35,235 bases of DNA from Bacteroidia bacterium. Its GTDB lineage: Bacteria > Bacteroidota > Bacteroidia > J057. A model generated the notes under the pieces. It had not been told where the DNA came from. It saw only the letters and a program-made list of their open reading frames with translations, and ran no database searches. The DNA lies in the NCBI GenBank assembly GCA_030731845.1, contig JANQTF010000321.1, positions 1-35,235 on the forward strand. Reading direction: 5' to 3'. The translations under genes were made by a program, and so were the position numbers. This document shows, one piece after another, positions 4,326 through 6,906 of the stretch. Each line of letters begins with the position of its first letter. Within the stretch, counting starts at the first letter, position 1.

Positions 4326-5513
4326 ATGGCAAAAAAGCCATTTCATCCCGATACCCTCGCGATCAGAATCCAAACCGACCGGTCGCAACACCGGGAGCAC
4401 GCTACACCGCTCTTCAACACGTCCAGCTTTGTTTTCAATGATGCGGAGCAAATGCGCGCCCTCTTTGCCGACGAAGAAGACGGGCACATTTACAGCCGCT
4501 ACTCCAACCCCAACGGGAAGGAATTTGAGGATAAAATGGCTGCCCTGGAAGGCATGGAAGATGGGTTTGCCACTGCCTCAGGCATGGCGGCGGTGTTTGC
4601 CAGCATGGCAGCCGTGCTGAGCCATGGCGATCATGTAGTGGCCTCGCGGGCCTTGTTTGGTGCGTCTCACAGCATTCTCACCAACATTATGCCCCGCTTT
4701 GGCATTTCTCACACCTACGTTGATCCGGCAGAAGGAGAAAGTGTGTGGGAAGCGGCCATCCAGCCCAACACCAAAATGATCTTTGCCGAGACGCCCTCCA
4801 ATCCGGGTCTTGCCTTGGTGGACCTCACCATGCTGGGCAAGCTTGCCAGCAAGCACGACCTCATGTTCAATGTGGACAACTGCTTCGCGACGCCATATCT
4901 GCAAAATCCCGGCGCATTTGGCGCGCACCTGGTTTCCCATTCTGCCACCAAATTCATCGACGGACAAGGGCGGGTGCTGGGCGGCATCGTGGTCGGATCT
5001 GCTGAGCTTGTGGGCAAAGTGCGGGCATTTTGCCGGGCCACTGGCCCGGCCATTGCCCCATTTAATGCGTGGATCCTTTCCAAAAGCCTGGAAACGCTTC
5101 ATGTGCGCATGGATCGCCATTGTAGCAACGCTCTGGCACTTGCCACCTGGCTCGAAACCCGCAGCGACATTCTCCGCGTGAATTATCCCTTTCTGCCCAG
5201 CCATCCCCAGCATGATCTGGCCAAAAAGCAGATGCGCCAGGGCGGTGGTGTGGTGACCTGTGAAGTAGCAGGCGGAATTGCGCGTGGCCGCGAATTTCTC
5301 AATCATCTGGAGATGATTTCGCTCTCTGCCAACCTCGGCGACAGTCGCAGCATTGCCACGCACCCTGCCTCCACGACCCACGCCAAGCTCAGTGAGGAGC
5401 AGCGGCAAGCCGTGGGCATTACGCCAGGGCTGGTGCGAATCTCTGTGGGGCTGGAGCACATCAGCGATATCATCGCCGATGTGGAGGCAGCATTGGATCA
5501 CACGAAATCTTAG
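4326..5513 (+). CDS. metZ: O-succinylhomoserine sulfhydrylase (PLP trans-sulfuration enzyme)
   Basis: 395 residues, the normal length for the Cys/Met-metabolism PLP family. The enzyme would make homocysteine from an activated homoserine and sulfide for methionine synthesis in the cytoplasm. The PLP-binding lysine is K209 in SHSATKFIDGQGR. That FIDGQGR extension and the following LGGIVVG are typical of O-succinylhomoserine sulfhydrylases as opposed to cystathionine lyases. Other family motifs are YSRYSNPN (from Y56), ATASGMAA (82-89), AETPSNP (154-160) and the aspartate of FNVDNCFATP (D184). SVGLEHISDIIAD near the C terminus is also standard. O-acetylhomoserine as substrate cannot be excluded. 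The gene ends just before the inverted-repeat element at 5550. Confidence 0.9.
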   Translation: MAKKPFHPDTLAIRIQTDRSQHREHATPLFNTSSFVFNDAEQMRALFADEEDGHIYSRYSNPNGKEFEDKMAALEGMEDGFATASGMAAVFASMAAVLSHGDHVVASRALFGASHSILTNIMPRFGISHTYVDPAEGESVWEAAIQPNTKMIFAETPSNPGLALVDLTMLGKLASKHDLMFNVDNCFATPYLQNPGAFGAHLVSHSATKFIDGQGRVLGGIVVGSAELVGKVRAFCRATGPAIAPFNAWILSKSLETLHVRMDRHCSNALALATWLETRSDILRVNYPFLPSHPQHDLAKKQMRQGGGVVTCEVAGGIARGREFLNHLEMISLSANLGDSRSIATHPASTTHAKLSEEQRQAVGITPGLVRISVGLEHISDIIADVEAALDHTKS

Positions 5514-5531: not shown

Positions 5532-5852
5532 ATATCCTCAATGGGTGTGCCGTCCGGTTAAGGGAAAAATGACCTGGGAAGGCGCTCCCCAGCCCAGAGG
5601 GCTGAACGATGATAGCCCCGGGTGAAACCCGGGGTAGGAGTGCTCCCTTTGATTCGCAACCCCGAAGTGGGTTGAATTCCAGTAACCCTTGCAAGTATCT
5701 TCAGGTAATTCAACTCCTCCAGATTGCCAGTCTATCTGGTCAGCATTCCCCGGGTTTCACCCGGGGCTACTGTTGTTGTTTCCCTCCGGGAAACCGAAAG
5801 AATCGACTTGTAATCTCCTTAACCGGACGGCTATATCCTCAATGGGTGTGCC
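5532..5852. repeat. 20-bp direct repeats flanking the 5550-5830 element (5532-5551, 5833-5852)
   Basis: The 20-base word atatcctcaatgggtgtgcc occurs at 5532-5551 and again at 5833-5852. The right copy covers the last four codons and the TGA stop of the minus-strand DUF3500 gene (stop at 5839-5841). The left copy is therefore a duplicate of that gene end. The repeats abut or overlap by about 2 bases the inverted-repeat ends of the element between them, as a long target-site duplication would. Confidence 0.85.
5550..5830. mobile_element. Small non-autonomous inverted-repeat element (MITE/REP-like), 281 bp
   Basis: The ends are perfect 14-bp inverted repeats: ccgtccggttaagg at 5550-5563 and its reverse complement at 5817-5830. 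Inside, two copies of a strong hairpin lie in opposite orientation: ccccgggtgaaacccgggg near 5616-5634 and its reverse complement near 5748-5766. Smaller hairpins lie at 5657-5674 (caaccc/gggttg) and 5719-5739 (ccagat/atctgg). There is no coding frame of note. The structure fits a miniature element mobilised in trans, for example by a REP-associated tyrosine transposase, but none lies in the window. The hairpins may also end transcription of metZ and the DUF3500 gene, which converge here. Confidence 0.75.
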
Positions 5853-6906
5853 CGTGATCTGCGTCAGCAGTTTCGTAGTGGCGCTTGAGGTAGTCTTCGC
5901 CGAAGTCGTTGGTGGGGTCGCGCCAGACCACATGCACGTGGTTGGCGTTGTTTTGGGTATTATCATACTCCAAAATCATGGTCGGGCCCTGGATACGATA
6001 ATAGTGCGGTTTTCCGGGCTCCAAACTTCCCATCCAGGTGAAGTAGAGCGCATCGAGTCCGCCTGCGTCGATCATGCGCTGCATCTGGGCCTCAGCGATG
6101 GAGGTTTCCATTTTCCCAACAAATAACCGCACAAGTTGCTCCAGCATGGCGCGCTGCATCTCGGTCATGTCGGTAGCGGACAAGACATGAGTGGTTTCAT
6201 ACTCCGCGATTTCCCTGCCAAAACCAGTCAGAATTTCTTCCGGGGCCTCGCCTGGGGCGATAGCTGAAATCAGCTGTGCTTCGTCGAGGCTTTTGGCCAA
6301 AGCCCTTCCCTGTTCCTGCTCCTTGGTGAGCACCTCGATCACGACCTCAGTGTCTTCTGGCGATCGGGAGGGATAGGCGCCCAAAGCAGTAGGAGTCACC
6401 GAAATCTTATCTCCAACCACGGTCACACTCAAGGATACGTGATGCCCTTCAAATCTCCAGCCCCAGGGCGCAGTCATTGATGGCTCTCCAAATAGGGAAA
6501 TGAAGTATTTGCCGGGGTTGCGAAAGTCGTCTGTACTGTCGCGTTTTTCAATGCTTTTGAGCAGGATCTCCATCTGCATGATGGCAGCCACTTCATTTTT
6601 CCCGACTTCACTCAAGGCAGTACTAAGCAAAGCTCTTGTGGCAGCCTGCTGCGCCTCATTCATTTCTCCATAGCGCTTTCCAATCCGATCGGGCTTGGGA
6701 TACAGGTGCCAGTCGAACTGATTCTCCCCCTGAAATTCGTAGAGCAATCCTTCCTTATCTTCAAAACTATTGATCAGACTTTTTGCGGCAGTCACCATGC
6801 TTGATTCTGTCTCGTGATCATGGTCATGAGAGGCAGCTTTTTCTTCGCAGGAGACAAGGGCTATGAGTACAGCGATCGAAGTGAGGGTGGTTCGAAACAG
6901 GCTCAT
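5839..6906 (-). CDS. DUF3500 family lipoprotein with His-rich ends
   Basis: 355 residues. The N terminus is a lipoprotein signal with lipobox ALVSC (C20), so the mature protein is membrane-anchored on the periplasmic side or exposed. Residues about 40-345 match the DUF3500 pattern: W-x-x-R-F-E-G-H-H-x-S-L-S, then a TPTALGAYPS region, a helical GRALAKSLDEAQ segment, and a C-terminal WMGSLEPGKPHYYRIQGPTM block followed by NHVHVVWRD. A histidine/aspartate cluster follows the lipid cysteine (H27, H29, H31). Another closes the protein (H351, H353, H355), suggesting metal binding. It lies 68 nt after the oxidoreductase gene and is probably co-transcribed. The family has no settled function. Confidence 0.82.
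   Translation of the reverse strand: MSLFRTTLTSIAVLIALVSCEEKAASHDHDHETESSMVTAAKSLINSFEDKEGLLYEFQGENQFDWHLYPKPDRIGKRYGEMNEAQQAATRALLSTALSEVGKNEVAAIMQMEILLKSIEKRDSTDDFRNPGKYFISLFGEPSMTAPWGWRFEGHHVSLSVTVVGDKISVTPTALGAYPSRSPEDTEVVIEVLTKEQEQGRALAKSLDEAQLISAIAPGEAPEEILTGFGREIAEYETTHVLSATDMTEMQRAMLEQLVRLFVGKMETSIAEAQMQRMIDAGGLDALYFTWMGSLEPGKPHYYRIQGPTMILEYDNTQNNANHVHVVWRDPTNDFGEDYLKRHYETADADHGHTH

Follow-up and report, generated by a model that had tools for sequence, protein, structure and literature searches.

The 281-283 bp segment lying between two convergent genes of the window, by which we mean the whole 35,235-nucleotide stretch of DNA that was analysed, is in our assessment a MITE, lacking a transposase of its own and retaining only the ends on which an IS4-family DDE transposase from the CAT-end group (IS231/ISH8-like) acts, with a probability of about 0.93. 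The family of copies, their ends, their target duplications and the existence of autonomous IS4 elements that share these ends together lead to this assignment. The element is thus ordinary in kind and new in detail. A preliminary description of the locus had proposed a mobile, MITE-like element, and this is borne out by the many copies, the common ends, the target duplications and the autonomous relatives. Its suggestion of an undescribed element type is not, as the ends and the duplications of the sibling copies are those of the IS4 family.

Structure of the segment

The features of the locus are listed in Table 1. The segment is non-coding, and the open reading frames that overlap it are short and attributable to chance only. 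Its inverted ends, described earlier as perfect over 14 bp, are real; with the flanking G/C counted in, they match at 15 of 15 bp (5549-5563 against 5817-5831). The 20-bp direct repeats are likewise real, being identical at all 20 positions, or 18 bp long when the final CC is assigned to the element. Relative to the family end consensus, CATAGCCGTCCGGTTAAG, the outer CATAG has become GTGTG in the left end of the window copy, and the right end reads CTATA in place of CTATG. Single-stranded folding of the segment is much stronger than that of shuffled sequences (z = -8.2), mainly owing to the ends and to the inner 22-bp perfect inverted repeat.

Table 1. Features of the element and its surroundings in the window
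Feature	Position	Strand	Remarks
Cys/Met-metabolism PLP enzyme gene	4326-5513	+	PF01053; convergent neighbour to the left
Left direct repeat ATATCCTCAATGGGTGTGCC	5532-5551	.	Final CC common to repeat and element end
Expected true duplication TCCTCAATGGG	5535-5545 / 5836-5846	.	11-bp core, judged from sibling copies
Left terminal inverted repeat GCCGTCCGGTTAAGG	5549-5563	+	15/15 bp against reverse complement of right end
Non-coding core, type A	5564-5816	.	Built of palindromes; own genome has about 20 other places with like cores
Internal 22-bp perfect inverted repeat, arm 1 TAGCCCCGGGTGAAACCCGGGG	5613-5634	+	
Internal 22-bp perfect inverted repeat, arm 2	5748-5769	-	
Right terminal inverted repeat CCTTAACCGGACGGCTATA (family form CTTAACCGGACGGCTATG)	5817-5835	-	Final three bases lie within the 20-bp repeat
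Right direct repeat ATATCCTCAATGGGTGTGCC	5833-5852	.	Holds DUF3500 last codons and stop (5839-5841)
DUF3500 gene	5839-6906	-	PF12006, E 1.8e-74; intact; insertion site is its 3' end

A search for structured RNAs returned the Rfam family Acido-Lenti-1 for the minus strand of 5590-5634, at 29.3 bits against a cut-off of 37, and the other tested copies gave no match; this candidate was set aside. Some members of Acido-Lenti-1 could be hairpins of mobile elements rather than functional RNAs.

Insertion site and neighbouring genes

Both convergent genes are uninterrupted. One of the direct repeats had been recognised as the final codons of the DUF3500 gene together with its stop, which is correct for the right copy. 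The accompanying claim, that the duplication restores the gene end exactly, stands insofar as DUF3500 is intact; it is uninformative, since by definition a target duplication places an intact copy at either side of the insertion. The target at this locus is the quasi-palindrome CATATCC-TCAAT-GGGTGTG, which lies over the DUF3500 stop codon. Several other targets are quasi-palindromic too, among them GGGCCAAGGCCC in a Legionellaceae genome and GACCCTAGCGGGGTC in the own genome.

The segment also contains three terminator-like stems against 0.3 expected, two of them overlapping on the minus strand (5574-5592) and one on the plus strand (5631-5646). The element may therefore serve its neighbours as a predicted terminator.

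Copies in the own genome

The own genome is a draft of 5.26 Mb in 390 contigs, 94% complete, and many of its contigs end inside these elements. The search for further copies that the preliminary description had proposed was productive. With the type A core as query, 40 matching stretches were recovered at about 20 places, and at least 14 short elements (159-346 bp) have paired family ends and two assessable flanks. An end-pattern search that allowed up to two mismatches gave 70 matches, compared with 77 for a control pattern; at this threshold end counts alone prove nothing, and the evidence is carried by exact matches and inverted pairing. The longer end ATAGCCGTCCGGTTAAG, with at most one mismatch, gave 31 matches and its control 0.

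The cores of these elements fall into three types, A (that of the window), B and C, which share no similarity once 25 bp have been trimmed from each end. Identical copies of a type B element lie at C181:12339-12605 and C118:5076-5342 within different flanks, and another type B element is nested in a type A element with the same ends (L005, C91:22014-22643). Both observations argue for transposition.

Two further observations concern the surroundings of individual copies. At L046 (C118:5071-5376), a 10-11 bp target copy comes after a type B element and is itself followed by one end of a second, identically oriented element, so that two tandem elements have one target copy in common. At L009, a strong 14-pair G+C hairpin (1353-1389), situated at a distance of about 110 bp from a core of type A, gives a match to part of the Rfam sX6 family that stays below the cut-off.

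Palindromes of types A and C are also found alone in the own genome (L238, L239, L240, L241, L244 and L247), with no IS4-type end within 350 bp. These may be decayed elements or captured free REP-like repeats. They also bear on an alternative that we regard as unlikely, namely that the primary mobile unit is a REP-like palindrome, moved or maintained by a RAYT Y1 transposase, and that this palindrome has come to lie between IS4-type ends by chance or capture. The occurrence of core palindromes without ends and the almost wholly palindromic nature of the core would fit such a unit, but the target duplication bounds the element defined by the terminal inverted repeats and not the palindrome, and RAYT movement is not known to produce such duplications. 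The GTAG- and CGTC-tagged REP palindromes resemble the window element in being intergenic palindromes of high copy number, and PMC3733652 gives their size as 20-40 bp; unlike the window element, they are not bounded by long terminal inverted repeats with target duplications.

Target duplications and the long repeat of the window copy

The sibling copies in the own genome carry duplications, mostly of 10-12 bp, directly outside CATAG...CTATG. Examples are CCCTAGCGGGG at the C181 element (11/11), GGGAAAGGGG at the C171 element (10/10) and GGGAAATRCCT at the C379 element (10/11). The pairing of flanks was assessed by permutation, with right flanks swapped among elements in 2000 trials. For the own genome the observed value was 59, against a permuted mean of 6.4 and a maximum of 36; for elements of other genomes it was 133.5 against 15.8. 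None of the 2000 permutations reached the observed value in either case. A clear duplication is absent from about half of the elements in the own genome, as expected of old copies.

The duplication of 18-20 bp had been put forward as a trait of the element type. This is not supported: siblings and autonomous relatives mostly have 10-12 bp, as is usual in the IS4 family, and the surplus is peculiar to the window copy. To the right of the expected duplication, TCCTCAATGGG, the left copy reads TGTGCC, which occupies the place of the element's outer CATAG, and the CTATA of the right end, for CTATG, matches the left flank. The inner 15 bp are perfect in both ends, which makes random decay of the outer bases into neighbouring sequence unlikely. 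Our guess is that the surplus of 7-9 bp most likely arose after insertion, when repair or conversion between the target copies replaced the five outermost bases of the left end. Such conversion is, we infer, the simplest account of the long repeat. By analogy, an unusual cut may instead be its source, a possibility kept because IS1634 and IS1549, of a related family, are known for long and variable duplications (PMC2266710).

The long repeat might also be read at face value, as the normal 18-20 bp target duplication of an undescribed element type, which we consider very improbable. The exact 20-bp repeat of the window copy agrees with it, as does the C379 copy, a weak parallel in which a 17-bp repeat with two mismatches was found. 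Against it, the same-ended siblings and autonomous relatives have 10-12 bp, and in both long cases the surplus stands where the left outer CATAG belongs. The unusual recombination product that the preliminary description offered as another option, in which the right end of DUF3500 was copied by ectopic duplication without transposition, draws on the fact that the duplicated stretch takes in the gene end, and is refuted by the many copies at unrelated sites, with duplications of their own.

Related ends and autonomous elements in other genomes

In the genome contig collection searched, the exact 18-bp end was present in four other stretches, and paired short elements were found in a Caldithrix MAG, in Chryseotalea and in a Legionellaceae MAG. 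Across 395 sampled genomes of the phylum, exact ends occurred in the own genome only, and the group is thus patchy. No copy of the element was found in the plasmid collection, and viral contigs held scattered single ends with no convincing pairs. With the element and its flanks as query, neither an empty nor an occupied orthologous site was found among 60 relatives, the flanks being too diverged, so that the suggested alignment of occupied with empty sites did not yield a comparison.

The 3-Mb Legionellaceae genome G507 contains 16 pairs of the ends CATAGCCGTCAGGCTAAG, 15 of them spaced 1445 bp apart and one 3027 bp. The sole copy translated, L223, encodes an intact transposase (DDE_Tnp_1) that NCBIfam places in the IS4 family (NF033592, 195 bits, cut-off 115). 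With this transposase as query, a second autonomous element, L231, was found in G004, a genome of the window's own family. It is 1545 bp long, has the inverted ends CATAGCCGTCAGGCTAA, is flanked by an exact duplication of 11 bp (GCGATCGGGGG) and contains an intact 474-aa frame that is 32% identical to the L223 transposase. The four transposases of L231, L223, IS186 and L232 share an aligned Y(2)R(3)E(6)K motif. A Spirosoma plasmid carries a broken IS with exact ends 1457 bp apart. Identity to the family end is 16/18 for L231 and L223 and 17/18 for the Spirosoma element, all of which lie outside the own draft genome.

L231 and L223, for which no public name was found, are likely the source-type element for the MITE. 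They share its ends, to which the assessment of likeness was confined, and L231 its 11-bp duplication; unlike the window element, they are 1.4-1.5 kb long and have an intact transposase.

A transposase gene bounded by the same ends, which the preliminary description had proposed to look for, therefore exists in other genomes (L231, L223). In the own draft genome no intact IS4-type transposase of matching sort was found, and the L223 transposase as query returned nothing. The only DDE_Tnp_1 match there, an unrelated-looking 156-aa fragment, was rejected as the source: by eye it is ISAs1/H-repeat-like, and no matching ends were seen. The DDE_Tnp_1 matches in the Caldithrix and Legionellaceae drafts were also rejected, as they lack these ends.

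In the six G507 copies whose flanks were read (L223-L226, L229 and L230), the targets are GGGC...GCCC-like palindromes, often lying within repeats of the GTAGGT(T/C)GGGC... type. The Caldithrix MAG G061 holds about 259 end copies at up to two mismatches, against 15 in the control, a large MITE expansion whose cores are made of CACGAGCTAAAGCTCGTGG and CCCTCACCC...CTCTCCC palindromes.

Comparison with known systems

IS231 targets are of the GGG/CCC type, as in the family of the window element. In the IS231 and ISH8 subgroups the ends start with CAT and conserve a T or TAA at positions 15-17, and the repeats are 10-12 bp long (PMC2266710, Table 1, De Palmenaer 2008). The family consensus has such ends, the window copy having lost its left outer CATAG, and the siblings have such repeats, against 18-20 bp in the window copy. 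The DDE transposase with Y(2)R(3)E(6)K is present in the autonomous relatives only; the MITE encodes none. IS231/MIC231 of the Bacillus cereus group resemble the family in the CAT start, the TAA at 15-17 and the 10-12 bp duplications, and transposase-less cassettes of the IS231 group are moved in trans (PMC1196294). They differ in the middle of the ends, where the AA at 11-12 of the IS231 subgroup proper is replaced by CG in the family and by AG in the autonomous relatives. The window element, moreover, has no cargo gene and a palindromic core, and members of the IS231 subgroup have been described almost exclusively from the B. cereus group.

Similarity extends to IS186/IS421 of E. coli, IS4-family members whose ends, CATAAGCGCTAACTTAAG, are identical to the family end at 11 of 18 positions. 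IS186 in K-12 has a GC-bounded duplication of about 10 bp, as read from its sequence. Unlike the window element, IS186/IS421 are autonomous, and the middle of their ends is different. The Coxiella MITE QMITE2 was rejected as a counterpart: its repeats are mostly 7-9 bp, and these ends are not apparent in the text of PMC5896051.

Proposed mechanism

In the mechanism that we propose for this IS4-family MITE, a transposase made elsewhere would bind the inverted ends CATAGCCGTCCGGTTAAG and excise the element, which would then be joined to a target whose two strands had been cut about 11 bp apart. Filling of the gaps would produce the 11-bp target duplication. In the window, insertion into the quasi-palindrome over the DUF3500 stop codon would have left the gene unharmed. 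Mobilisation probably took place in trans, by an IS4-type transposase in the own host, an enzyme deduced from relatives.

Implications

The finding allows unexplained intergenic palindromes to be annotated as MITEs, and shows how the ends by themselves can link a set of unexplained intergenic repeats to a single transposase family. L231 provides an intact candidate enzyme, and the three core types within one set of ends form a small case study of how MITEs gain or exchange cores. More tentatively, and with considerable doubt, the CATAGCCGTC(C/A)GGTTAAG ends could be a general carrier in several phyla, enclosing unrelated REP-like palindromes, some of which are also found alone. If that reading is true, IS4-type transposases acting in trans may have contributed to the spread of many REP families.
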